A DNA stretch of 41,759 nucleotides, from assembly GCA_944324195.1 (NCBI GenBank), contig CALUVJ010000006.1:1-41759 (forward strand). Reading direction: 5' to 3'. The stretch is from Candidatus Gastranaerophilales bacterium (lineage in GTDB: Bacteria; Cyanobacteriota; Vampirovibrionia; Gastranaerophilales; Gastranaerophilaceae). Below the pieces are notes generated by a model. That model was not told where the DNA came from. It was given only the letters and a program-made list of their open reading frames with translations, and ran no database searches. Made by a program: the position numbers and the translations under genes. Shown in pieces: positions 6,541-20,979 of the stretch. The stretch's first letter is position 1, and each line of letters opens with the position of its first letter.

Positions 6541-6607
6541 TTAGTCACCCAGTCACTTAATCACTTAGTCACTAATCTATTCACTGCTCACCAGTCACTA
6601 TTCACTA
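6541..6607. repeat. 7-nt-period TCACTTAG tract
   Basis: A run of about nine imperfect heptads of the form TTAGTCAC / TATTCAC / CAGTCAC fills the space up to glyQ. The glyQ stop codon (6605-6607 on the plus strand, CTA) is the last three bases of a TTCACTA unit. The same heptads recur at about 10735, 14119, 17801-17880 and 29440. Confidence 0.8.
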
Positions 6608-7630: not shown

Positions 7631-8809
7631 ATGGCACCGGATATTATTAATATAAATATAAAAAGCGGAGATGGCTTATCATACGCTATAGACAGAAAAC
7701 TTGATGCTGAATTAAAACAGGATGTCAAGTTTAATTTGAGTGAGTGGAATTCAGTATTTAATGTTATAAAAAATGATAAAGCTACTGAGAAAAAGCAATA
7801 TACCGGCGGAGATTCCGATATAAGAGATAATAAACAGTTTGTCGTGCAAGAAGGTAATTATCAGATTACAAAGAGTGCCTGGGATAAAATTGTTGATATG
7901 GCAAAAAAGAAACTTGGTATATCAACAGCTGAGCAGAAAGCCGAAACGGAAGAAACGCCTGAAACAGAGGTTCAGACACAAGAAACCGGGACTAAGTCAG
8001 ATGAAGAAAAGATAAAAAACATTCTTACCGAGGCCGGAATAAATGTAAGTGATGCCGATATGGAAAAGATTAAGTCAAAGTATGGAATGATTCTTACATT
8101 CAATAAACAAAACGGTATAAAAACAGATGAGAAAAACTTAAAAGAAAGAATTGTTAATTATGCAAAGGGTTTAAGATTCCAAAACTTTGAAAAAACAGTG
8201 CTTAATCAGAATGGAGAATATGAAAGTGATTGTTCGGAAGCCAAAACATATGAAGAACTTCATACAAAATATAAACAATTCGGAAAAGAGTATGTAGAGA
8301 CAATGGACCAAGACGGCAACGGGCAGATTGATACTCACGAAATGTTTTATTCCGAATTAACAGCTTTGTATGAAAGCAAGGGTATGACATATCTTCAAGC
8401 TAAAGCAAAAGCTCTTGAAGTTACTAAACAATTTAAAGATTATAATGCAATGAATTTGCCTGAGGAAGGCGAGCCTCTGTACGGTACGGAAGAAGCAGTA
8501 CAATTTACAGACATTTTAGGCAAAATGGGTGTACTTGATGAAGATAAGAATATGAGTTTGTCAGCAGATGAAGCAGCTGCGTATTTAATGGCAATGGCCC
8601 AACTGGATGATGCAAGAAACAATATAACCGCACAGGAAAGCGAAAGAGCAGAATTAGCGATTGCAATGCAAGACTATAGTGTTCAGGATATTATGGAAAT
8701 GCTTGGATGTTCGGAAGAAGAAGCTAACAATATAATTTCAATCAGAACCAGATTTAATAGTAAACTTGCGGATGCAAGAGAGTTTATAAAATTTTACGGT
8801 ATTAAATAA
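7631..8809 (+). CDS. EF-hand protein of a lineage-specific family
   Basis: A 392-residue protein I cannot name. It has no signal peptide and no membrane helix. Two EF-hand calcium loops form a pair in the second half: DQDGNGQIDTHE is a canonical 12-residue loop, and DEDKNMSLSADE has all acidic ligands but Met in place of the usual Gly at position 6. The N-terminal 95 residues contain GDSDIRDNK and a final ITKSAWDKIVDMAKK helix. The middle is acidic and low-complexity (about residues 100-125, ETEETPETEVQT). The D-x-[ND]-...-DNK element also occurs near the N-termini of the proteins at 21129 and 39753, suggesting one family. Calcium binding is inferred from the loops. No Shine-Dalgarno is visible. 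Confidence 0.8.
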   Translation: MAPDIININIKSGDGLSYAIDRKLDAELKQDVKFNLSEWNSVFNVIKNDKATEKKQYTGGDSDIRDNKQFVVQEGNYQITKSAWDKIVDMAKKKLGISTAEQKAETEETPETEVQTQETGTKSDEEKIKNILTEAGINVSDADMEKIKSKYGMILTFNKQNGIKTDEKNLKERIVNYAKGLRFQNFEKTVLNQNGEYESDCSEAKTYEELHTKYKQFGKEYVETMDQDGNGQIDTHEMFYSELTALYESKGMTYLQAKAKALEVTKQFKDYNAMNLPEEGEPLYGTEEAVQFTDILGKMGVLDEDKNMSLSADEAAAYLMAMAQLDDARNNITAQESERAELAIAMQDYSVQDIMEMLGCSEEEANNIISIRTRFNSKLADAREFIKFYGIK

Positions 8810-8812
8810 CAC

Positions 8813-8843
8813 TTGACTGAGAGTTGGTATCAGGATGTACTAT
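8813..8843 (+). promoter_or_regulatory. Promoter of the DXS-like gene
   Basis: TTGACT at 8813-8818 is a good -35. TGTACT (8836-8841, 17-nt spacer) or the overlapping TACTAT is the -10. A Shine-Dalgarno (AAAGGAA) precedes the ATG at 8876, so this gene has an ordinary leader. Confidence 0.55.
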
Positions 8844-8875
8844 ATTTATAGTTAAATAAGAAAGGAACTATAAAT

Positions 8876-10642
8876 ATGGAAACAACACTTATGGTTTTGG
8901 ATAAAGTTAATTCTTCCAAAGACTTAAAAAATCTTAGTATAGAAGAGCTGGATATTTTATCGGGTGAAATTAGAGAGCTGATACTCAAAAAAGTAAATAC
9001 AACAGGAGGGCATCTCGGACCTAATTTGGGTATAGTGGAAGCAACGATAGCACTTCATTATGTCTTTGATACACCTGAGGATAAATTGGTTTTTGATGTT
9101 TCGCATCAATGTTATCCGCATAAAATTTTGACCGGCAGAAAAGAAGGTTTTACAAATCCTGACAAGTATCAAAAATATACCGGCTATACGGCACCGGAAG
9201 AAAGTGAATATGACTTATTCAAAGTCGGACATACTTCTACTTCAGTCAGTCTGGCAACCGGACTTGCAAAAGCAAGAGATTTAAGGGGCGGTAAAGAAAA
9301 TGTAATTGCGCTGATTGGAGACGGTTCTCTAAGCGGCGGCGAAGCTTTTGAAGGGTTGGATAATGCCGCGGCTCTCGGAAGCAATATAATTGTTGTGGTT
9401 AATGATAATGATATGTCTATAGCAGAGAATCAGGGCGGTCTGTATACTAATTTAAAACTGCTGAAAGATACAAACGGGCAGGCTGAATGTAATTTCTTTA
9501 AGTCTCTTGGCTTTGATTATTATTACGTCGATAACGGAAATGATATTGAAAGTTTAATTTCAACATTCAATAAAGTTAAAGATTCCGACCACCCTGTTTT
9601 AGTACACATAAGAACTATTAAGGGTAAGGGCTGCATAGCAGCGGAAACGGATAAAGAACATTATCATTGGATTGTTCCGGGAGAATTGGATAATGATTAT
9701 TCTCCGGCTGTTTCTCAAGAGGAATCTTATGAAAGTATTACTACGGATTACCTTTTGAAAAAACGTGAACAGGATAATTCAATAATTGCAATATCTCCGG
9801 CAACTCCGGGGGTAAGCGGGTTTACAAAAGAGTTTAGAGAAAAGATGGGCAATAATTATACTGACGTAGGTATTGCAGAGCAGCACGCAGTAGCATTTGC
9901 ATCAGGCTTGGCAAAAAATGGCGCAAAACCGGTACTTGCAATAATGAGTTCTTTTATCCAGAGAGCTTATGACCAGCTTTCACAGGATTTGGCATTAAAT
10001 AACAACCCGGCAACGATTCTCGTCTTTTGGGGCGGAATTACCGGTGCGGATGCAACACACCTTACTAAATATGATATTCCTCTAATTGCAAATATTCCAA
10101 ATATTGTATATTTGGCGCCTGTTAATAAGGAAGAATATCTGGCAATGCTTGACTGGGCAACGGAGCAGAGGAATTATTCCGTAGTAATACGTGTCCCTAT
10201 GTGTCAGATGGTTAGTATCGGTAAAAAAGACACTACGGATTATTCAGTATTAAATAAATACCATGTTGCGGAAAGCGGTTCAGAAATCGCAATTTTAGGG
10301 CTCGGTAATTTCTTCCGGCTTGGGCAAAAAGTAAAATCACTTTTGAAAGACAAGCTGGGTATTTCTGCAACTCTAATCAATCCGCGCTACATTACGGGTA
10401 TTGATAAAGAACTTTTGGAAAGTTTGAAGGCTAATCACAGATTGGTTATAACATTAGAGGACGGGGTTTTGGAAGGCGGTTTCGGCGAAAAAATTGCTTC
10501 TTATTACGGAGCTTCCGGCATGAAAGTTATAAATTTCGGGGCATCAAAAGAATTTACCGATAGAGTTCCGCTGGAAGAACTTTATAAACGTTATCACTTA
10601 ACACCGGAATTGATTTTAGAGGATATTCAAAATCTTTTATAA
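8876..10642 (+). CDS. Divergent DXS-like thiamine-diphosphate transketolase
   Basis: A 588-residue protein of the 1-deoxyxylulose-5-phosphate synthase family (COG1154), shorter than typical DXS (about 620-640). Thiamine-diphosphate and catalytic residues are kept: H46 (TGGHLGPNLG), H77 (DVSHQCYPHK), the GDGSLSGGEAFEGLDNA cofactor motif from 148, NDNDMSI at 176, H264, E335 (DVGIAEQHAVAFA), R363 (FIQRAYDQ) and H395 (GADATH). The two arginines that hold the glyceraldehyde-phosphate group in true DXS are missing. The DRAG motif is WGG here (about 385-387) and RYPRG is RVPM (439-442). It may therefore be a DXS-like enzyme with another acceptor rather than the isoprenoid enzyme. It has its own promoter and a strong terminator; no isoprenoid genes are adjacent. 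Confidence 0.85.
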   Translation: METTLMVLDKVNSSKDLKNLSIEELDILSGEIRELILKKVNTTGGHLGPNLGIVEATIALHYVFDTPEDKLVFDVSHQCYPHKILTGRKEGFTNPDKYQKYTGYTAPEESEYDLFKVGHTSTSVSLATGLAKARDLRGGKENVIALIGDGSLSGGEAFEGLDNAAALGSNIIVVVNDNDMSIAENQGGLYTNLKLLKDTNGQAECNFFKSLGFDYYYVDNGNDIESLISTFNKVKDSDHPVLVHIRTIKGKGCIAAETDKEHYHWIVPGELDNDYSPAVSQEESYESITTDYLLKKREQDNSIIAISPATPGVSGFTKEFREKMGNNYTDVGIAEQHAVAFASGLAKNGAKPVLAIMSSFIQRAYDQLSQDLALNNNPATILVFWGGITGADATHLTKYDIPLIANIPNIVYLAPVNKEEYLAMLDWATEQRNYSVVIRVPMCQMVSIGKKDTTDYSVLNKYHVAESGSEIAILGLGNFFRLGQKVKSLLKDKLGISATLINPRYITGIDKELLESLKANHRLVITLEDGVLEGGFGEKIASYYGASGMKVINFGASKEFTDRVPLEELYKRYHLTPELILEDIQNLL

Positions 10643-10716: not shown

Positions 10717-10761
10717 GGGGGTAAATGTATTGGTTTAGTGATTAAGTGACGGAGTGACTAA
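10717..10761. repeat. Composite repeat: GGGGGTAAAT box plus heptad tract
   Basis: GGGGGTAAATGTATTGG at 10717-10733 is followed directly by TTAGTGATTAAGTGA and GGAGTGACTAAGG. On the other strand this reads heptad tract, then CCAATACATTTACCCCC. That is the same order and orientation as the element at about 29440-29484, showing the two modules belong together. Confidence 0.75.
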
Positions 10762-11088
10762 GGGGGGAGGGGAAAATATTTTAATCCTTCCTGCTGGCGA
10801 GGGGAAGAAGCCGGTCCAATACATCCCCCCCTCACCCGCATTCGTAGCTTTCGCTCAGCTTAAGTACCGCTGCGTCCTCTCCCTTGATAGGAGAGGAATT
10901 TTCAGTATAACAGCCCCTCACCCTAACCCTCTCCCCAAAGGGGCGAGGGGAAAAAACAGGCAGCCCAATATATTTACCCCCTTGGGTTATTCGTGGTGTT
11001 GGAAAACCCTTATCAGCACCCTCCCCTGCCCTCCCTCTTTTAGGGAGGGAGTTAAACAGCCGGCCCAATACATTTACCCCCCCCCTCT
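10761..11088. repeat. GC-rich hairpin array ending in CCAATA-ATTTACCCCC boxes
   Basis: Three related units fill this gene-free stretch (the whole gap is 10643-11154). Each has a GC-rich, hairpin-forming half followed by a box: CCAATACATCCCCCC at about 10815, CCCAATATATTTACCCCC at 10964-10981 and CCCAATACATTTACCCCC from 11064. Hairpins include CTCCCC-AAA-GGGGCGAG (about 10930-10950), CTCTCC...GGAGAG (about 10876-10893) and CCCTCCCTCTTTTAGGGAGGG (about 11030). The CCCTCACCCTAACCCTC wording matches a repeat type common in bacterial intergenic space. Base composition is far from that of the neighbouring genes. Open frames here on both strands look accidental. Confidence 0.75.
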
Positions 11089-11154
11089 TGAAATTTATTT
11101 TTGTTAGCAATATAAAAGTATTTGGTAAAATTAATTTTGGGAATATAGATAGTT

Positions 11155-13146
11155 ATGGGAATTTATTTTTTTTCAATAGTCATACTGCTATTAGGAGCTT
11201 TACTTTCTGTTGTAATAAAAGATGATAATAAAAAACTAAAGTCATGCTCTATATGTTCAGTTCTGTCAACAATTTTAACACTAATACCTGCAATATATAC
11301 TATAAAAACAGGTATGCCTTTGCAGATAAGTATATATGCGTCTCCATTATTGGGCTATGTTGATATAGTAATTGATGCATTGTCTGCTTTTTTTCTCATT
11401 GTCATATCAATAATGAGCTCTTTAGGAATAATATATGCTAACGGGTATATGAAGCCTTATTTAAATAAAGGCATGAATATTTCTTCTCATTGTTTTTCTT
11501 TAATGCTGCTTGTTATCTCTATGATGCTGGTCGTTACTGCACAAAATGCATTATTCTTTCTTATAGTTTGGGAAATAATGTCACTTTCATCATTTTTCCT
11601 TGTCATATTTGAAGGTGAAAAAAAAGAAGTTATCAGTGCAGGTATTAAGTATTTAGTTTACATGCATATATCAATGATATTTATATTAGCTGCTATGATA
11701 GTTTTGAATGCTCAAACTGATAGTTTAAGATTCATGGATTATCTTGCGTTTATGCAAAATAACGGTGCGCATGCTAATTTAATATTTGTACTGGCTTTTA
11801 TAGGTTTTGGAATAAAGGCTGGATTTGTTCCTTTTCATAATTGGCTTCCTGAGGCTCACCCTGCTGCACCGAGTCATGTTTCCGGTATAATGTCCGGAAT
11901 TATGATTAAAACAGGTATTTATGGTATTTTGAGATTCCTGTTACTTATCGGCACTCCGTCAAAGATAATTTCTTATGCAGTTTTAGGTGTTGCAGTTATT
12001 TCAGCTTTATACGGAGTTTTGTATGCAATAACTCAACATGATATAAAACGATTACTGGCTTATCACAGTATTGAAAATATCGGTATTATCGGTATAGGTA
12101 TCGGTGCAGGTATGCTTGGACTTGCTTATGATAATACTTTTCTTGCGGTTTTTGGTTTTACGGGCGGTATATTACACATATTAAATCACTCTATATTTAA
12201 AGAATTACTGTTTTTCGCAGCAGGAAGTACGTATTTAAAAACCCATACCAGAAATATTGAACTTATGGGCGGTTTAATAAAGAAAATGCCATATACTGCG
12301 TTATTGTTTATCATCGGTTCTGTTGCAATATGCGGAATCCCGCCTTTTAACGGTTTTATAAGCGAATTTTTAATATACGCCGGTATGATAAAAGGAGTTC
12401 CTGCATCAGGTATAAGTTTATTTATAGTATTGGTACTTTCTATTGCGGCTCTTGCAATGGTAGGAACAATGGCTATGCTTTGTTTCACAAAAGCTTCCGG
12501 TGTAATGTTTTTGGGAAATCCGCGCGGTGTAGACATTGATAATGTTTCGGAAGCTCCTGCAACAATGATTTTCCCGATGACTGTTCTTGCGTTTCTTACA
12601 TTCTTTATCGGAATGTATTCTCAGTATTTTATATCTTACGCATCAATACCGGCTTCAATGTTCACAAATGGAGTGGATGCTGTAGGAGATTTGATTTATT
12701 TATTTGATTTTGTCGGAAATATCGGATGTTACTTTATGTTATTTTTAGCAATTGCGGTTGTAATACTCGTAATAAGGTATGTGCTGGGCATTGGTAAAAA
12801 AACAGAGCGGCATTCAACCTGGGGATGCGGGTATAATCGTCCGAATAATCATATGCAATATACTGCTTCTTCTTATGCGGATCTTTTTATTTCCACATTA
12901 AAACCTTTGTTTAAACGCGTTTCTCATATCAAGAAGCCGAAAGATTTATTCCCGAAAGAGGCATATTATGAGCAGAACATAGAAGATATAGAAGAAGCTT
13001 ATATTGTGAAACCTCTTATTATGTGGGATGAAAAATTCCTTACTAAGTTTGAGCGGATTCAAAATGGTAATATTCAGCAATATATATTATTTGGTTTGAT
13101 ATTTTTAATCTTATCTGTAATCGGTATGATTTATTTTGGGGGTTAG
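11155..13146 (+). CDS. Ehr/hydrogenase-4-type antiporter-like membrane subunit B
   Basis: A 663-residue polytopic protein homologous to HyfB/HycC and to the NuoL/M/N proton-pumping subunits of complex I. About 15-16 membrane helices are visible. The core antiporter-like motif GIKAGFVPFHNWLPEAHPAA, with SHVSGIMSGIMIKTGIYG just after it, lies at about residues 220-258. KRLLAYHSIENIGIIGIG follows at about 300. The soluble tail (about 545-640) with RHSTWGCGYNRPN is typical of HyfB. It is the first gene of the six-gene operon ending at 18636, and its 3' end is 1 nt before the downstream ATG. No clear Shine-Dalgarno is seen. TATAGA at 11144-11149 ends 5 nt before the ATG, so a leaderless start is possible. 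Confidence 0.9.
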   Translation: MGIYFFSIVILLLGALLSVVIKDDNKKLKSCSICSVLSTILTLIPAIYTIKTGMPLQISIYASPLLGYVDIVIDALSAFFLIVISIMSSLGIIYANGYMKPYLNKGMNISSHCFSLMLLVISMMLVVTAQNALFFLIVWEIMSLSSFFLVIFEGEKKEVISAGIKYLVYMHISMIFILAAMIVLNAQTDSLRFMDYLAFMQNNGAHANLIFVLAFIGFGIKAGFVPFHNWLPEAHPAAPSHVSGIMSGIMIKTGIYGILRFLLLIGTPSKIISYAVLGVAVISALYGVLYAITQHDIKRLLAYHSIENIGIIGIGIGAGMLGLAYDNTFLAVFGFTGGILHILNHSIFKELLFFAAGSTYLKTHTRNIELMGGLIKKMPYTALLFIIGSVAICGIPPFNGFISEFLIYAGMIKGVPASGISLFIVLVLSIAALAMVGTMAMLCFTKASGVMFLGNPRGVDIDNVSEAPATMIFPMTVLAFLTFFIGMYSQYFISYASIPASMFTNGVDAVGDLIYLFDFVGNIGCYFMLFLAIAVVILVIRYVLGIGKKTERHSTWGCGYNRPNNHMQYTASSYADLFISTLKPLFKRVSHIKKPKDLFPKEAYYEQNIEDIEEAYIVKPLIMWDEKFLTKFERIQNGNIQQYILFGLIFLILSVIGMIYFGG

Positions 13147-13147
13147 A

Positions 13148-14068
13148 ATGCTAGTTACTTGTTTTAATATATTAATACTATTACTGGTTCCGTTTTTAAT
13201 GACGGGTATTATTAAAAAGACTAAAGCCTTTTGGGCAGGCCGGAAGGGAGTTAGTATTTTTCAGCCGTTATGGGATTTTCTGCGCCTGATGAAAAAAGGG
13301 GCAGTGGTTAGTAATACTACTTCTTGGATATTTAAATACACTCCTGTGATAGGGTTAACAACTGTTATTTTTGCGGCATTATTTGTTCCGATGGCAACAG
13401 GAAAAGCTATAATAAATATTCCTTTTGCTTTTGTTATATTTTCTTATGTGCTCGGTTTGGGGAAATTTTTCTCTTTACTTTCAGCACTTGATACCGGAAG
13501 CAGTTTTGAGGGAATGGGTGCTTCAAGAGAAGCGTGTTTTTCAACCATAGTTGAACCGGCATTTTTCATAACGCTTGCATCGTTAGCAGCATTAACACAA
13601 AATTATAGTTTTGAAAGTTTAAAGTTGATTTTGCAAAATGCGGGCGGTTACGGAGTTTTAATTATAGCTCTTGCGGTTGTTACTTTATTTATAATGCTTT
13701 TAATAGAAGGCTGCAGGGTGCCTGTTGACGATCCGACTACTCATTTGGAATTAACAATGATACATGAAGTTATGATACTTGATAATTCAGGTATTGACTT
13801 AGGTTTAATAACTTGGGGCGCGGCAATTAAAATGTTTTTATTTGAAGCATTGATTGCAAATCTTTTGATACCGCTTTCCTGGGGATGGTGGGAATCTGCG
13901 CTTGCATTTTTGGCAATTGTTTTTATTCTGTCGGTAATAATAGGAACGGTAGAATCGTCTATGGCAAGATTTCGTATGACACATGTATATGAGTTCATTT
14001 TCATAATGTCAATTACGGCCCTATTGATTTTGGCTCTTGTGGTTTACCGCATTTACGGAGGGGGGTAA
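13148..14068 (+). CDS. Ehr/hydrogenase-4-type membrane subunit C (NuoH-like)
   Basis: A 306-residue membrane protein of the HyfC/HycD/NuoH family, which links the soluble electron-transfer arm to the ion-translocating arm. The diagnostic loop EGCRVPVDDPTTHLELTMIH (about residues 190-210) and the GASREACFSTIVEPAFF segment are intact; about 8 helices are seen. I prefer the ATG at 13148, with GGGGGTT 4-5 nt upstream. An upstream TTG at 13136 would overlap the previous gene and lacks a ribosome-binding site. The reading frame ends inside an interspersed GGGGGTAAAT box that supplies the TAA stop and the last glycines (IYGGG). The C-terminus is therefore repeat-derived. Confidence 0.9.
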   Translation: MLVTCFNILILLLVPFLMTGIIKKTKAFWAGRKGVSIFQPLWDFLRLMKKGAVVSNTTSWIFKYTPVIGLTTVIFAALFVPMATGKAIINIPFAFVIFSYVLGLGKFFSLLSALDTGSSFEGMGASREACFSTIVEPAFFITLASLAALTQNYSFESLKLILQNAGGYGVLIIALAVVTLFIMLLIEGCRVPVDDPTTHLELTMIHEVMILDNSGIDLGLITWGAAIKMFLFEALIANLLIPLSWGWWESALAFLAIVFILSVIIGTVESSMARFRMTHVYEFIFIMSITALLILALVVYRIYGGG

Positions 14069-14142
14069 ATATAAGCGAGGTAAATATCCGGGGGTAAAGT
14101 TAGAAATGCTCAAATTTTCTATTCACTGCTCACTATTCACTC
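14061..14142. repeat. GGGGTAAAT boxes and heptad tract between hyfC-like and hyfE-like genes
   Basis: GGGGGTAAAT at 14061-14070 carries the stop codon of the preceding gene. Related boxes follow at about 14077 (GAGGTAAATATCC) and 14090 (GGGGGTAAAG). Then comes the heptad tract CTATTCACTGCTCACTATTC at about 14119-14138. It separates two genes of one operon by 106 nt where the neighbouring junctions are tight. Confidence 0.7.
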
Positions 14143-14174
14143 CCCAAAAAAGAAAGGTAAAATAAGAAGGAAAA

Positions 14175-14882
14175 ATGGAAAATATTTTTATAATTTTATT
14201 GGGATTATCAATGATATACATAGCATCAACAAGCAGGCTGAGAGCACATGTAAATATGCTTATCATGCAAGGTTTGCTCTTGTTTCTGGTATGTCTTGCG
14301 GGGTTTGAAAAAGAACCTTGGTTTAATTGGTCAATGCTTTCGGGAATTGGGGCGATAAAAGCAAATATGCCGCATATTATCGGATTTTTATTTGTTGTGG
14401 TTGAAACTCTTATTGTGAAAGCTTTTGTTATACCGTTGTTTCTTAAAAAAGTTATTAATAAGACGAATGCTCACAGAGATACAGATGCAAATATTCCGCA
14501 TTTTTACTGTTTGGTTATTTCAAGTGTAATTTTGTTTGCGGGATTTTTAATAGCAAATATCGATACACCTGCTTTTAAACTGGTTTCTCCAATGTATTTT
14601 GGTGTTTCAAGTGCAATAATAATAACAAGCTTATGGTTAATAACAATAAAGCATAAAGTTTTATCAAATGTAATCGGTTTTATTACAATGGAAAACGGAA
14701 TCTTTTTATTATCACTTTCTGTTGCAAATGAAATGCCTATTATTGTTAATCTTGGTGTATTGTTGGATATATTCATTGCGGTATTTATTTTGGGAATGCT
14801 TGTTAATGAAATCAGCAATGAGTTTGACGATTTGGAAGTATCACAGTTATCAGATTTGAAGGATTACGAGTACAATGATTAA
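14175..14882 (+). CDS. Ehr/hydrogenase-4-type membrane subunit E
   Basis: A 235-residue membrane protein resembling HyfE, the small membrane subunit of hydrogenase-4-like complexes. Its C-terminal half recalls NuoK (MENGIFLLSLSVANEMPIIV and GVLLDIFIAVFILGMLVNEI). Six to seven hydrophobic helices are visible, with an acidic C-terminal tail. The start follows AAGAAGG. Its 3' end overlaps the next gene by 8 nt, indicating translational coupling. Function follows from the operon: a structural or ion-path subunit of the membrane arm. Confidence 0.82.
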   Translation: MENIFIILLGLSMIYIASTSRLRAHVNMLIMQGLLLFLVCLAGFEKEPWFNWSMLSGIGAIKANMPHIIGFLFVVVETLIVKAFVIPLFLKKVINKTNAHRDTDANIPHFYCLVISSVILFAGFLIANIDTPAFKLVSPMYFGVSSAIIITSLWLITIKHKVLSNVIGFITMENGIFLLSLSVANEMPIIVNLGVLLDIFIAVFILGMLVNEISNEFDDLEVSQLSDLKDYEYND

Positions 14883-16308
14883 TTTAATTTTATTATTTCC
14901 GCTGGCTGCGTGTTTAATATTATTTATATTCAAGAAAAATTTCTTAAATAATTTGTTAGTATGCACGTATGCAGTAATACATTTTCTGGTTTCGGCTGCA
15001 CTATGCTGCGACGTTGATTTTTTGCCAATGATAAAACCATTTCGTTTTTTTGCGGCGGACGATACCAGCAGAGTATTTTTAATGGTTATGTCTATTGTTT
15101 TTCTTGCAGTTGCTGTATATAATATCGGGTATTTAAAAACTGAAAAATCTTTAACAAGAAAATTAAGACATTATACATATATGCTTTTATTTTTTGTATT
15201 TTCAATGACAGGAGCTATTTTAAGCTCAAATTTAGGTATTTCCTGGGTATTTATTGAAGGTACAACCTTGGCAAGCGCTTATTTAATTTATTTTCATAAA
15301 ACAAAACATTCTATTGAAGCTGCTTGGAAGTATGTTTTTATATGTTCTATAGGTATTGCTTTGGCATTTGTCGGTATTATATTGCTTACGGTAGCTACAG
15401 GCGACGTAAATACATTATTTTATAATGATTTGTATGCAAATGCGGCAAGTTTTAATCATTTTTGGCTTAAGTTATCTTTTGTGTTTATATTATTCGGAAT
15501 TGGTACAAAAATGGGACTTGCTCCTGTACATTTTTGGCTTCCTGACGCACATGCAGAAGCTCCGTCTCCGGTTTCGGCGCTTTTATCAGCAGCACTATTA
15601 AATTCAGCTTTTTTGATGATTTTAAATGTATTTAGAGTTATGGTATTTGCGGAATGTGATACGTACGCTAGAATTATGCTTCTTGTAATGGGATTTTTAT
15701 CTTTGTTCGTAACTGCCGTATTTGTATACCATATAAATAATTACAAGAGAATGCTCGCGTATTCTTCAATTGAAAATATGGGTATTCTTGCAATCGGAAC
15801 CGCACTGGGCGGAATAGGAGCTCTTGCTGCTATTATACATATGATAGGGCATTCTTTAATAAAGGCGTCTTTTTTCCTTACTTCAGGTAATATCCTGGAA
15901 AGATACGGTACAAAAAAGATAAAATCAATTACGGGATTGCTTAAAACGGACAGAAAAACCGGCTGGCTGTGGATTATATCCTTTCTCGGAATTGCGGCAT
16001 TTCCGCCGTCAGTCTTGTTTATCAGTGAATTTTTGATGGTGAAAACACTTTTCCTTAAAAAGTATTATATATTGTGTATTTTGTTCCTTTTACTTTTAAC
16101 AATCGTTTTGTACGGGTTGGGCAAAGCTGTTATCAAGATGGCGTTCTCAGCTCCGAAAGAGGATAATGTTCAAAATATATCTACAGAAAAATTCAGTCTG
16201 ACAATGTATATTCCTCAGATGATTATGCTGACAATTGCTTTTATAATTGGTATTTATATGCCGTTTGGTTTTGTCGAGCTGATTATAAACGCAATCAGAG
16301 GGTTTTAG
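14875..16308 (+). CDS. Ehr/hydrogenase-4-type antiporter-like membrane subunit F
   Basis: A 477-residue HyfF/NuoN-M-like subunit, the second antiporter-type protein in the operon. The core motif GTKMGLAPVHFWLPDAHAEA, then PSPVSALLSAALLNSAF, lies around residues 212-248. YKRMLAYSSIENMGILAIG follows at about 290, with HSLIKASFFLTSGNI after that. About 14 helices are seen. It overlaps the preceding gene by 8 nt and is followed 24 nt later by the large-subunit gene. With subunit B it gives two proton/sodium-path candidates. A third antiporter-type gene (HyfD) is not present. Confidence 0.9.
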   Translation: MINLILLFPLAACLILFIFKKNFLNNLLVCTYAVIHFLVSAALCCDVDFLPMIKPFRFFAADDTSRVFLMVMSIVFLAVAVYNIGYLKTEKSLTRKLRHYTYMLLFFVFSMTGAILSSNLGISWVFIEGTTLASAYLIYFHKTKHSIEAAWKYVFICSIGIALAFVGIILLTVATGDVNTLFYNDLYANAASFNHFWLKLSFVFILFGIGTKMGLAPVHFWLPDAHAEAPSPVSALLSAALLNSAFLMILNVFRVMVFAECDTYARIMLLVMGFLSLFVTAVFVYHINNYKRMLAYSSIENMGILAIGTALGGIGALAAIIHMIGHSLIKASFFLTSGNILERYGTKKIKSITGLLKTDRKTGWLWIISFLGIAAFPPSVLFISEFLMVKTLFLKKYYILCILFLLLLTIVLYGLGKAVIKMAFSAPKEDNVQNISTEKFSLTMYIPQMIMLTIAFIIGIYMPFGFVELIINAIRGF

Positions 16309-16332
16309 GTTTAGAATAAAGAAGGTAAACAT

Positions 16333-17796
16333 ATGAATTGGGTAATAACTGAAAATAATAAAAAAATAAACGCTCTTGATATTCCTGCAATATCAATTAG
16401 TGAAATACAGGCCGATGTAGAAAAAATGAAAATGCGTGTTGTCGGTTTTTTCGGTAAACAAGAATTTGAAAATGTAAGACTATATGTTGTAATGGCGGAC
16501 GATAAGATTGGTAAATTATATATTACGTCTGCGATATTTCCTCCTAATGTAAAATCTTATGAATCTTTTACCCAGAAAATGCCGGCTTTTCATATTTTTG
16601 AAAGAGAATTTTATGAAGAATTCGGTATTGAGCCGCTTCATCATCCTTGGTTAAAGCCTGTTCGTCAGAATCAGGACGAGTATCCGTTTTTTGAAATGAA
16701 AGGAGATGAAGTTCATCAGGTTGCAGTCGGTCCTATTCATGCCGGAGTTATTGAACCGGGGCATTTTAGATTTATGTGTATGGGTGAAAAAGTTTATGAT
16801 TTGGAGATAATGCTCGGCTATCAACACAGAGGTGTTGAAGAATTATTTATAAAAAATAATGGTTATAATAACCGTTTGGCTGAGTCTGTTTGCGGAGACT
16901 CCGTTATTGCATATAATATGGCGTATTCTCAGGCAATGGAGGAGTTATCCGGAACAAAGATTTCTTCTAAGGCCCAAATTATCCGTCGTATTGCTCTGGA
17001 AATGGAAAGGGCTGCGATTCATATAGGTGATATGGGTGCAATAGCCGGAGATATGGCATATCTTATGGGTGCATCTATATTTGGTATTACAAGAACGCTT
17101 GTAATCAATACAATGTTAGAAATTTCCGGCAGCCGTTTTGGCAGAGGTTTGATTAATGTTGGCGGTGTGAATTTTGATATTGATGATGAGATGGCTGCAA
17201 AAATTATAAAAATGTTGGATGAGGTTGAAAAAACTGTTGACAGAACAACAAAAGTAATGCTAAAAACGCCTTCTTGCATATCAAGAATGGAAAGAACGGG
17301 TGTTGTCAGCAGAGAAACCGCTAAGTCACTTGGTGCGGTTGGTATGGCAGCACGTTCTTCGGGAGTTGAATTAGATTCAAGATTTGATTTTAATGATAGC
17401 TGGTATATATCTCTTGATGTCCAAAAACCTTTCAAAGCAGCAGGCGACGTTCATTCAAGATTTACGCTCCGTTATAAGGAAATCAAACAATCAATTCAGA
17501 TTATTAAAAAGCTGCTTGCTAAGTTAAAGGAATTTGAATCTGAGCCAATTCTTGTAAAACCGGAACAATCACTCGCTCAGAATTCCTTTGTGGTATCAAT
17601 TGCGGAAGGCTGGCGCGGTGAAGTTGTTCACACAGCAGTTACCGGTGCAAAAGGCGAACTTTTAAGATACAAAATAAAAGATCCGTCTTTCAATAACTGG
17701 TATATGCTTGCGATGGCAGTCAGAAACAACGGTGTTTCGGATTTTCCGCTTTGTAATAAGAGCTTTAATCTGTCATACTGCGGAAACGATTTATAG
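16333..17796 (+). CDS. Large subunit of Ehr-type complex (HyfG/NuoCD-like), NiFe ligands incomplete
   Basis: A 487-residue fusion of a NuoC-like N-terminal domain (about 1-125, with FHIFEREFYEEFGIEPLHHP) and a NuoD/hydrogenase large-subunit domain (about 135-487, with YQHRGVEELF at about 163). True NiFe hydrogenases hold the metal with two CxxC pairs. Here the first site reads ESVCGDS (C187, S190) and the C-terminal site reads DFPLCNKSFNLSYCG (C474, S477, extra C483). One cysteine of each pair is thus replaced by serine. The ending is also too short for the usual protease-processed hydrogenase tail. This fits the energy-converting hydrogenase-related (Ehr) complexes, which lack a canonical NiFe site, better than hydrogenase-4. 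The Shine-Dalgarno AAGAAGG is clear. Confidence 0.88.
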   Translation: MNWVITENNKKINALDIPAISISEIQADVEKMKMRVVGFFGKQEFENVRLYVVMADDKIGKLYITSAIFPPNVKSYESFTQKMPAFHIFEREFYEEFGIEPLHHPWLKPVRQNQDEYPFFEMKGDEVHQVAVGPIHAGVIEPGHFRFMCMGEKVYDLEIMLGYQHRGVEELFIKNNGYNNRLAESVCGDSVIAYNMAYSQAMEELSGTKISSKAQIIRRIALEMERAAIHIGDMGAIAGDMAYLMGASIFGITRTLVINTMLEISGSRFGRGLINVGGVNFDIDDEMAAKIIKMLDEVEKTVDRTTKVMLKTPSCISRMERTGVVSRETAKSLGAVGMAARSSGVELDSRFDFNDSWYISLDVQKPFKAAGDVHSRFTLRYKEIKQSIQIIKKLLAKLKEFESEPILVKPEQSLAQNSFVVSIAEGWRGEVVHTAVTGAKGELLRYKIKDPSFNNWYMLAMAVRNNGVSDFPLCNKSFNLSYCGNDL

Positions 17797-17798
17797 AA

Positions 17799-17880
17799 AA
17801 GTGACTGAGTGATTAAGTGATAAAGATATTAATTTATTAAATCACTTATTCACCTAGTCACTTAGTCACCTAGTCACTTT
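17799..17880. repeat. Inverted heptad repeat between the large and small subunit genes
   Basis: AAGTGACTGAGTGATTAAGT at about 17799-17818 is the imperfect inverse of the run ATCACTTATTCACCTAGTCA near 17841-17860. About 20 of 23 positions pair around an AT-rich loop. A further CTTAGTCACCTAGTCACTT lies downstream. It is the largest gap inside the operon's 3' half and could form an mRNA hairpin just before the Shine-Dalgarno of the next gene (GAGGT at about 17888). Confidence 0.75.
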
Positions 17881-17898
17881 ATAAAAAGAGGTAAAAAA

Positions 17899-18636
17899 AT
17901 GCTATCAGATACAATAAAACTAAAATATTTTCAAGGAAATCAATTTATACCGGATATTCAGAATGCTCCGATGAGGAGTCAGTTTAGAGGATTTCCGGTA
18001 CTAAAGAATTGCGGTAACGTTGATGAGACAGTTTGTCCGACAGGTGCTCTTAAAACAAATCCTTTATCTATAGATTTGGGAAAATGCACTTTGTGCGGGA
18101 ACTGCAAGGGTGAATGCGTAGAATTTACAAATCACTACAAACTTGCGTCGACTTCACGAGAAAAACTTGTTATTACTGAGGGTATGTCTCCTGAAGAGTT
18201 TGAAAAAGCTGCAATTCAATCAAGAAAAGAAATTTTAAGAGTTTTTTCAAAATCTCTTAAATTAAGGCAAGTTTCGGCAGCAGGCTGCAATGGTTGTGAA
18301 ATGGAATTGAATGCTTGTTCCAACTGCAATTTTGATATGGGAAGATTTGGTATCGATTTTGTGGCATCTCCGCGTCATGCAGACGGTATCGTAATTACTG
18401 GCCCGATTTCCGAGAATATGGCTTATGCTCTGGAGGATTGTTATAAATCTACTCCGGATCCTAAAATCGTAATTTTGGCCGGTGCTTGTGCAATTTCTGG
18501 CGGAGTATTTCAAAATTCTTCAAAATTAAACAGAGAATTTTTAGAAAAATACCCTATAGATTTATATATTCCGGGGTGTCCAATTCATCCGTTGACATTT
18601 ATTAACGCTGTACTTGATTTTATATCAAAGAAATAG
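17899..18636 (+). CDS. Ferredoxin-NuoB/HyfI fusion, small subunit of Ehr-type complex
   Basis: A 245-residue protein joining two subunits that are separate (HyfH and HyfI) in E. coli hydrogenase-4. The N-terminal part (about 1-80) is a ferredoxin-like module with one full [4Fe-4S] motif, CTLCGNCKGEC (C63, C66, C69, C73). An upstream degenerate site has only C38 and C46 (CGN...VCPTGAL). The C-terminal part is the NuoB/hydrogenase small-subunit core with the four proximal-cluster cysteines C130 and C133 (GCNGCE), C197 (LAGAC) and C227 (PGCP). It is the last gene of the operon and ends 3 nt from a convergent gene. It would pass electrons between a ferredoxin-type donor and the large subunit. Confidence 0.88.
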   Translation: MLSDTIKLKYFQGNQFIPDIQNAPMRSQFRGFPVLKNCGNVDETVCPTGALKTNPLSIDLGKCTLCGNCKGECVEFTNHYKLASTSREKLVITEGMSPEEFEKAAIQSRKEILRVFSKSLKLRQVSAAGCNGCEMELNACSNCNFDMGRFGIDFVASPRHADGIVITGPISENMAYALEDCYKSTPDPKIVILAGACAISGGVFQNSSKLNREFLEKYPIDLYIPGCPIHPLTFINAVLDFISKK

Positions 18637-18638
18637 TT

Positions 18639-18992
18639 TTATATTCCGAAATAAAGCCGATTAAGTTCCGCAACTGTCATTGCTCCCAGCCGTGATTCCT
18701 CCAGCCGGGTTCTCTCTGACATTTGAGAATCTTGTACACCTTCAAGCGGTTGTATTTTCAGCTCTTGTTTTTGTTCTTCCTGCTGCCGGGTTTGAATTTT
18801 TTGTATTAATTCCGCTTTGGCCTGCTCTAATTTTCCTTTATCAATTTGTTTGTTACCGCTCGGTGCTATTCCAAAGCGCATAAGTTCTTGGAGTATCCTT
18901 AAATACTCAGGATCAGAATAATGATTTATTGCACTAATAGCAGCTACCAAAATTGCACTCCTAAATGTAAAGTTATATAACAAATTATACAT
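18639..18992 (-). CDS. Small hypothetical protein
   Basis: A 117-residue protein I do not recognise. Residues 1-22 form a mildly hydrophobic segment (FRSAILVAAISAI), possibly a membrane helix. Then comes EYLRILQELMRFGIAPSGNK, then a highly charged helical stretch (about 50-85) rich in Lys, Glu and Gln that is probably coiled coil. The end reads MTVAELNRLYFGI. It converges with the last gene of the Ehr-like operon, 2 nt apart. A GGTGG about 12 nt before the ATG is a weak ribosome-binding site. No context points to function. Confidence 0.6.
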   Translation of the reverse strand: MYNLLYNFTFRSAILVAAISAINHYSDPEYLRILQELMRFGIAPSGNKQIDKGKLEQAKAELIQKIQTRQQEEQKQELKIQPLEGVQDSQMSERTRLEESRLGAMTVAELNRLYFGI

Positions 18993-19116
18993 TTAATTAA
19001 TTCCACCAAATGAGTGATTTATAACAGTCAACTGTTAATATCTTTACAAAAATTTACGAATACGATAAAATATAAGAATATTAAGTTAATATTTTGTAAC
19101 AAACTGGCAATAAAAT

Positions 19117-19145
19117 TTGTTTTGGTTTTTTAGATAAAATATAAT
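19117..19145 (+). promoter_or_regulatory. Sigma-70-type promoter of the TpsB-like gene
   Basis: TTGTTT (19117-19122), a 17-nt spacer and TATAAT (19140-19145), about 55 nt before the preferred start codon. Confidence 0.65.
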
Positions 19146-19200
19146 GTCAGGTGTACAGTAATATTACAACCCAATAATGAAATTTAGGAATACGGAAATT

Positions 19201-20979
19201 ATGAAGAAACAATTAGGCTATTTGCTTGCAATTTTATGTCTTTTATCTGTAAATAAAGTATTTGCAGATCCGATGGCGGGTACAGTTTTGCCGGCTCAAG
19301 TTCAAGCCGAGTTAGGCGGGTATAACCCGGGGGCATACAACACAACAGAATTGCAAAATATTAATCATTATGAAGTAGACAAAAGTTATATTCAGTCTTT
19401 TGACGATGTGACAAAAGATGAACAGATTTATGATGCTACAATAGAAGAAAATCAAGCTCGTGAGGGTGTTTTATACAATCCCCACTTCTTATTGCAGAAA
19501 ATAAATTTTGAAGGAAATACACAAATCCCGACTGAAGAGCTTGAAAAATTAGGCTTGGAAGTTTTAGGCGAAGATATTTTCTTTGATGAACTTTTAGAAG
19601 TTTGTCAAAAGGTAACTAATTACTATAGAGCAAAAGGGTATCTGACTTCATATGCAACAGTTCCGCCGCAAAGAATTGTTGATGGTGTTGCTACCATCAA
19701 AATTGTCGAAAGTAAGGTGGGCGAATTAAATATTGAAGGTGAAAAATGGACAAGAGAATGGTACCTTCGTCATATAATTATGGGCAAGGCAGGGCTTAGA
19801 GAAGGTGATGTATTTAACGCTAAAAACCTTCAAAGAGCAATGAAAGAAATTAACCGCGAAGATTATGTGCAGGTACAAACAGAGGTAGAAAGACAACAGG
19901 AAGGTGAAGAAAATACTGCAATAACCTTGAATGTAAGAGACAGATTCCCGGTAAATCTGAATTTCTCATATGATGATTACGGTCGTTCATATACCGGTGC
20001 TCAAAGAGTTTCATTCCTTGTTGGGATGGATAACTTAACAGGTTTGGGCGATAAAATATACGGCGGTACTATTCTATCTTCAGGAGCTACCGGTTGGATG
20101 GCCGGGTATTCACTTCCGGTATCTTCATACGGAACCAGATTGTCGTTCGATTTCTCCGATTCTCATGTAAGATTAGGCGGACCTTACAAGAATTTGAATG
20201 TAAAAGGTAATGCTCAAAGCTATTTCTTCAAATTAACTCAGCCGCTTATCCAAACTGCTAAATCAGATTTAATTTTATATACCGGTTATGATTATGTAAA
20301 TGCAAATACTTCTGCATATATAGCAGGCAATCCTTTAAGATTATCAAATTATAACCTCCACGTATGGCGTTCAGGCTTATATGGTATGACAGATGACAAT
20401 TACGGACGTTGGATTGGTAATTTCGGATTTGATTTCGGTTTGACAGGGGACGGACACGGTGCAATACAAGATACAACATTTGTTAAATTGACTGCCGGCG
20501 CTACCCGTGTACAAAGGTTGTTCGGACGCGGTTTAGGTATTGTAAGAGTTGGCGGTCAATATTCACCTAATAAATTATTTGCAGCAGAACAAATGCAAAT
20601 GGGCGGACCGTATACTTTGAGAGGTTACCAGCCTGCAGAATTAATCGGTGACTATGGTGTTACCGGTACTGTTGAATATCGTTTCCCTGTACCGTTCCTG
20701 GATAGAGTCGCTCCTAAGATTGATGAAAGATTAAAACTGGCTGTGTTCTATGATTGGGGCTGGTTGGGTGAAAATGGAAATATTTATAACTATCCGCAAT
20801 CATTCTTGCATTCAGTTGGTTTCGGAACATATGTTAACTTTACTGATTGGCTGACTGCGCAAATCGGTGTAGGTTTCCCTCTGGGAAGAGATTACAACGA
20901 AAATACTGCAAGATTTTATTTCAGTGTTAATTCAGACTTAGATAGATTAATTCCGCTAAGGAATCCTGAAAAACTGTAG
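19201..20979 (+). CDS. TpsB-type outer-membrane transporter (ShlB/FhaC/HecB family)
   Basis: A 592-residue outer-membrane beta-barrel of the Omp85/two-partner-secretion superfamily, which exports a large TpsA partner across the outer membrane. A signal peptide runs over residues 1-23 (MKKQLGYLLAILCLLSV, cleavage near VFA-DP). Two POTRA domains follow (about 85-245): LLQKINFEGNTQIPTEEL begins the first and VGELNIEGEKWTREW the second. From about 245 the sequence alternates in beta-barrel fashion, with the superfamily YTLRGYQPAEL (VRGY-type, lid-loop) motif at about 470. I chose the ATG at 19201 because AGGAATACGGA precedes it. An in-frame ATG at 19177 would put eight polar residues before the signal. 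No TpsA gene is adjacent. Confidence 0.88.
   Translation: MKKQLGYLLAILCLLSVNKVFADPMAGTVLPAQVQAELGGYNPGAYNTTELQNINHYEVDKSYIQSFDDVTKDEQIYDATIEENQAREGVLYNPHFLLQKINFEGNTQIPTEELEKLGLEVLGEDIFFDELLEVCQKVTNYYRAKGYLTSYATVPPQRIVDGVATIKIVESKVGELNIEGEKWTREWYLRHIIMGKAGLREGDVFNAKNLQRAMKEINREDYVQVQTEVERQQEGEENTAITLNVRDRFPVNLNFSYDDYGRSYTGAQRVSFLVGMDNLTGLGDKIYGGTILSSGATGWMAGYSLPVSSYGTRLSFDFSDSHVRLGGPYKNLNVKGNAQSYFFKLTQPLIQTAKSDLILYTGYDYVNANTSAYIAGNPLRLSNYNLHVWRSGLYGMTDDNYGRWIGNFGFDFGLTGDGHGAIQDTTFVKLTAGATRVQRLFGRGLGIVRVGGQYSPNKLFAAEQMQMGGPYTLRGYQPAELIGDYGVTGTVEYRFPVPFLDRVAPKIDERLKLAVFYDWGWLGENGNIYNYPQSFLHSVGFGTYVNFTDWLTAQIGVGFPLGRDYNENTARFYFSVNSDLDRLIPLRNPEKL

Follow-up and report, generated by a model that had tools for sequence, protein, structure and literature searches.

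The window analysed here, a 41,759-nucleotide stretch of Candidatus Gastranaerophilales contig CALUVJ010000006.1, contains an operon with gene order hyfB-hyfC-hyfE-hyfF-hyfG-hyfHI (positions 11155-18636). A sequence-only reading had taken it for an operon of hydrogenase-4 type, and domain searches bear this out, identifying HyfB-, HyfC-, HyfE-, HyfF- and HyfG-like products together with a fused small subunit. The six genes, and the large-subunit motifs discussed below, are as follows:

11155..13146 (+): HyfB-like antiporter-type membrane subunit, 663 aa; Proton_antipo_M domain, best NCBIfam match hydrogenase 4 subunit B
13136..14068 (+): HyfC/NuoH-like membrane anchor subunit, 310 aa; NADHdh domain (PF00146), aligning with HycD, HyfC and NuoH
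14175..14882 (+): HyfE-like membrane subunit, 235 aa; NCBIfam hydrogenase 4 membrane subunit with a score under the cut-off, and a weak NuoK-type match
14875..16308 (+): HyfF-like antiporter-type membrane subunit, 477 aa; Proton_antipo_M domain, best NCBIfam match hydrogenase 4 subunit F
16333..17796 (+): Ehr large subunit, 487 aa; NuoC-like N-terminus and NuoD/HycE-like domain without NiFe site
17899..18636 (+): small subunit, 245 aa; ferredoxin-like N-terminus fused to a NuoB/HyfI-like domain (Oxidored_q6)
16891..16902 (+): first motif, C187-G-D-S190 (CxxC in NiFe relatives)
17752..17763 (+): CNKS 474-477, a conserved family stretch and not a NiFe motif
17773..17784 (+): true second motif, S481-Y-C483-G484 (CxxC in NiFe relatives)

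In the membrane arm, the conserved charged residues of E. coli HyfB have their counterparts in E140, K221, K298 and E404 of the window's HyfB, and the HyfF charged residues E128, K212, K291 and E385 are likewise conserved. These Glu and Lys residues align with E. coli HyfB and HyfF and with the NuoM-type subunit of the same genome, a pattern consistent with ion translocation.

The ORF 5' of hyfB (10754-11107) has no Pfam or NCBIfam match and lies within an internally repeated stretch; it is probably repeat-derived and not a gene. Short tandem/inverted repeats of the GTGACTAAGTGA type occur at 17798-17880, between hyfG and hyfHI, and at 6545-6572 and 10741-10774, with six matches in the window against none expected by chance.

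Motif register and integrity of the large subunit

The large-subunit ORF carries CGDS at 187-190, CNKS at 474-477 and C483, as first described. Domain searches match it to Complex1_49kDa, and among solved structures its top matches are MbhL and the formate hydrogenlyase subunit HycE. The predicted model has a mean pLDDT of 89.8 (below 50 in loops 134-142 and 484-487), and its best structural match is HycE over the full length (TMq 0.87; Z 41).

The sequence-only reading proposed that one cysteine had been lost from each of two NiFe-binding pairs, CGDS and CNKS. This holds for the first pair, but from the second both cysteines are gone, and CNKS is not that pair: the same stretch reads VNKS in relatives with all four cysteines. 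The tail of these relatives is VNKSFNLCYACVDR and that of the window protein is CNKSFNLSYCGNDL, which sets C474 and S477 upstream of the site and puts S481 and G484 on the ligand positions. HycE C241, C244, C531 and C534 align with window C187, S190, S481 and G484, and the structure alignment, which stops at model residue 483 (HycE 533), agrees with the register of the sequence alignment. C474 and S477 are ruled out as metal ligands by this register, and the large subunit has lost three of the four NiFe ligands, not two.

The other residues singled out at first fare unevenly. S190 does occupy a ligand position, but genus members vary there between S, T and, in one case, M, so that it is not a conserved ligand, and S477 lies off the ligand position altogether. 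C483 is present, and common among the energy-converting hydrogenase-related (Ehr) sequences described below (74 of 96), but it stands beside the ligand position. The reported absence of a C-terminal maturation tail is confirmed, with the protein ending at the HycE R537 column, also the end point of complex I subunits.

Sequencing error at both codons had been named as a possible explanation of the altered motifs. It is ruled out, as is a pseudogene, by the recurrence of CGD[S/T/M] and SYCGND in about 30 genomes of the genus and by an omega of about 0.05, a rough value with dS near saturation; the higher value for locus L028 (0.26) is due to an unaligned length difference. The gene is real, intact and strongly constrained.

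Family, replacement pocket and Fe-S clusters

In a tree of 124 rows, obtained by a quick method and including some long branches, 100 Ehr sequences, that of the window among them, fall together in a single clade (SH-aLRT 96), with 13 four-cysteine rows as the sister clade (SH-aLRT 99) and HycE and HyfG outside. Placement within canonical group 4, which the sequence-only reading had admitted as a contrary outcome, was not recovered. The published Geobacter EhrL is not among the rows, and the clade includes Geomonas, Nitrospira and CPR loci, which are taxa, or close kin of taxa, with reported Ehr. The lineage is named after a Gastranaerophilales MAG that stands among the nearest relatives with a name. 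The window thus combines homology to group 4 NiFe hydrogenases, NiFe-binding CxxC pairs that are not conserved, Mrp antiporter-like membrane subunits (HyfB, HyfF) and grouping with large subunits from Ehr-reported taxa, while neither mark of a group 4 NiFe hydrogenase, four cysteines in two CxxC or HypD in the genome, is found. The suggested assignment to Ehr stands on homology and this single clade: the gene encodes an Ehr large subunit, and its host is a gastranaerophilalean 'Melainabacterium'. Ehr complexes in Melainabacteria have already been published (PMC6349859), and Di Rienzi 2013 described, in gut Melainabacteria, a six-subunit complex annotated as a NiFe membrane-bound hydrogenase without hydrogen-binding motifs (PMC3787301). 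The complex itself belongs to this widespread, previously described family; the machine is ordinary, and it is its relatives that give new clues.

Several features of other Ehr loci may be recorded here. A helix-turn-helix/PTS EIIA fusion gene lies directly 5' of hyfB at L094 (1169-1900) and some 25 other loci (L051-L130), in many Ehr operons of other phyla, and is absent at the window's operon; it is a possible regulator. Locus L063 holds two adjoining Ehr types (large subunits at 8515-10386 and 16100-17965), and in L066 the neighbour of an Ehr is a group 4 hydrogenase that has four cysteines and a C-terminal tail (8725-10356 and 17969-19303). Public records label Ehr-type large subunits 'hydrogenase expression protein HypE' or 'nickel-dependent hydrogenase large subunit' (plasmids H12, H16 and H30); H30 (L210, 8875-10440), the one such plasmid sequence read, has no NiFe motifs.

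The former NiFe site does not look simply eroded in this family. Residues I140, E141, D189, E383 and R428 are invariant in 97 aligned Ehr rows, and S481 and G484 in all 96 rows with letters there. Judged from these alignments, E141, D189, S/T190, R428, S481-Y482 and G484 constitute a conserved putative replacement pocket, which looks like a specific feature and not decay. The hydrogenase-type glutamate is retained, E141 aligning with HycE E193. C187 is a local state within Ehr, its column holding C in 11, A in 70, S in 14 and T in 2 of the 97 rows.

The pocket also bears on whether the complex could be a ferredoxin-fed quinone reductase resembling complex I, as the fold and C-terminal end shared with complex I 49-kDa subunits might suggest. 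Where complex I has its quinone-binding histidine in the beta1-beta2 loop, 97/97 Ehr rows carry Ile (I140 in the window), and the column of the quinone tyrosine is Gly or Ser/Thr (G188); His38 and Tyr87 (Thermus numbering) are absent from the window protein, which argues against a complex-I-type quinone site. Among the 58 genus genomes, moreover, the futalosine-pathway MqnA/D family was found in none, MenA above the cut-off in none and MenD above the cut-off in one, the sub-cut-off MenA matches being of another prenyltransferase type. Quinone reduction is therefore very unlikely.

In the window's small subunit two [4Fe-4S] cysteine sets are complete, C46/C63/C66/C69 and the proximal set C130/C133/C197/C227, the latter with hydrogenase-like C130-x2-C133 spacing and C197 and C227 retained; a third cluster, found in most relatives, is missing. 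This arrangement weighs on a second candidate function, that of a sulfane sulfur reductase of the MBS kind, a related complex that combines a degraded NiFe site with an ion-pumping arm (PMC7684303). The MBS proximal cluster rests on three cysteines, and MBS has no MbhL E21-type glutamate while keeping C85 and C385 (PMC7684303); the three-cysteine, shortened-loop cluster is absent from the window, where all four cysteines and E141 are kept. The early comparison with Mbx/MBS is thus apt as a general likeness and fails on proximal-cluster coordination and the glutamate, and an MBS-like activity is highly improbable.

Both cluster sets are retained in about 90 of 95 Ehr relatives. The proximal ligands have been lost in five Ehr lineages (L069, L109, L123, L055/L056 and L208), each locus having one NuoB-like ORF:

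L069, 10378-11184: small subunit with proximal cysteines lost
L109, 10208-11158: likewise, with two of the four proximal cysteines retained
L123, 3071-3661: proximal cysteines lost
L055, 8564-9604: proximal cysteines lost
L056, 10612-11436: proximal cysteines lost
L208, 10263-11135: proximal cysteines lost; Allomeiothermus plasmid copy, first loop changed too

In the four lineages scored no pocket residue has changed, a finding that fits awkwardly with the delivery of electrons to that site.

The four-cysteine sister clade was matched in 12 of 289 class genomes, to which L044 adds a thirteenth, its large subunit being split over two ORFs on a draft contig:

L042, 9303-16623 (-): sister-clade locus
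L043, 3580-10836 (+): sister-clade locus
L044, 86-4911 (+): sister-clade locus
L194-L205: sister-clade loci

Its large subunit keeps four NiFe-type cysteines (CG[ML]C, CY[AS]C) and has no tail. In all 13 genomes the proximal [4Fe-4S] cysteines are lost from the small subunit (NAEE, GDGAC, PG[ND]PP), and none of the 13 has HypD. The clade would thus appear to hold a metal site with neither electron wire nor NiFe maturation, and the four cysteines may bind another metal. An ArsR-type regulator accompanies nine of the 13 loci and a GPR1/FUN34/YaaH family protein eight; SulP or carbonic anhydrase genes lie near the operon in single loci only.

These two observations are what a non-redox enzyme would explain, one in which the pocket reaction needs no proximal-cluster electrons and is coupled to ion translocation: ligands have been lost five times in Ehr with the pocket unchanged in the four lineages scored, and the sister clade keeps its four-cysteine site without cluster or HypD. 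Yet the window and some 90 of its 95 relatives keep both cluster sets, and such conservation would not be expected of clusters that serve no purpose; L109 still has half of its ligands, and L208 has an altered first loop as well. We regard such an enzyme as unlikely, and would give no better odds to the proposal that both Ehr and its sister lack an oxidoreductase at the former NiFe site and are non-redox and ion-coupled, with a dispensable wire.

HypD and FeFe hydrogenase across genus and order

HypD builds the Fe(CN)2CO unit. It was found in 0/58 genus genomes and 0/192 order genomes, with control genomes detected, the window genome being 84% complete and its relatives mostly >90%; for HypD, the observation that no hyp/maturation gene is nearby thus extends to all the order genomes searched. 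With the four-cysteine site lost and HypD absent, the complex is predicted, as first proposed, to carry out no H2 chemistry. The idea of a genuine NiFe hydrogenase disguised by sequencing errors has in its favour the overall homology to HycE and HyfG, but is already contradicted by the altered motifs, which recur across phyla and in about 30 genomes of the genus, and by the order-wide lack of HypD, leaving it a negligible chance.

NiFe hydrogenases are reported in koala-gut Gastranaerophilales by Soo 2014 (PMC4040986). Because HypD is missing from all the order genomes searched, we infer that these are Ehr complexes, as the present data suggest; if so, the oxygen-tolerance argument resting on them would not stand.

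Ehr is present in 60 of the 192 order genomes. The FeFe hydrogenase domain is missing in 26, which fall in four genera, six of them identified through absence from the listed FeFe matches; all 26 carry Ehr, against 34 of the 166 FeFe-positive genomes (raw Fisher p 7e-16, the genomes not being independent). On the genus tree of 57 genomes, 29 have Ehr only, 23 FeFe only, three both and two neither, a near-exclusion (Fisher 2e-10, kinship ignored) that five changes in Ehr and three in FeFe suffice to explain; independent pairs are not significant, in a test without power. We treat the exclusion as a lead, with few independent switches; it fits an H2-independent electron outlet.

The same counts bear on the direction of flow. 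Run in reverse, Ehr would use proton-motive force to reduce ferredoxin, supplying FeFe hydrogenase and other ferredoxin users, a direction considered by Di Rienzi 2013 for the same gut Melainabacteria complex (PMC3787301) and in keeping with the reversibility that group 4 relatives can show. The 26 order genomes with Ehr and without FeFe hydrogenase mean that feeding the latter cannot be the general role of Ehr; they do not argue against other users. We consider reverse operation unlikely.

Proposed function and relation to known systems

The complex combines homology to group 4 hydrogenases and complex I with an intact antiporter-type arm, two complete [4Fe-4S] sets and no NiFe site. We favour, with a probability of roughly 60%, a six-subunit membrane-bound Ehr complex that pumps ions and is fed by ferredoxin. 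Reduced ferredoxin would feed electrons into the small-subunit Fe-S clusters, which would pass them to the former NiFe site; there an acceptor, neither H+ nor a complex-I-type quinone, would be reduced, and coupling via HyfC would drive ion export by HyfB and HyfF. Within the Gastranaerophilales, Ehr may provide an H2-independent outlet for ferredoxin electrons, and FeFe hydrogenase would then be dispensable in some lineages. The sequence shows the subunits, the cluster cysteines and the pocket; donor, acceptor and direction of electron flow we infer. Against this ion pump stand the five lineages with proximal ligands lost and the operon neighbourhoods, which were searched for a donor/acceptor module and revealed no consistently conserved adjoining redox partner.

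What is new here is the presence of Ehr in every FeFe-negative order genome, with few independent switches; the fivefold loss of proximal Fe-S ligands beside an unchanged pocket in four lineages; and a sister clade with four cysteines but without proximal cluster and HypD. Ehr is found across many bacterial phyla, and testable predictions on its function follow from the corrected register, from a pocket that is invariant and seems separable from the wire, and from the association with FeFe loss.

With described Ehr complexes (PMC6349859, PMC3787301) the window shares the subunit set, the NiFe ligand loss and the antiporter-type membrane arm; its genus differs from Ehr at large in having C187 where most have Ala and in lacking one of two small-subunit ferredoxin-type clusters. 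Compared with E. coli formate hydrogenlyase and hydrogenase 4 (HycE, HyfG), it keeps the Arg canopy and the beta1-beta2 Glu but lacks three of the four NiFe cysteines, the canopy Asp (now N479), the C-terminal tail and HypD. Respiratory complex I (NuoD/NDUFS2) resembles it in fold, membrane-arm logic and C-terminal end position, whereas the quinone His/Tyr are absent from the window protein; the same genome encodes a separate complex I NuoD (L045). The MBS/MBX sulfane reductase of Pyrococcus is likewise group 4 kin, its NiFe site degraded and its arm pumping ions (PMC7684303), in contrast to which the window's complex keeps the E21-type glutamate (E141) and all four proximal-cluster cysteines.
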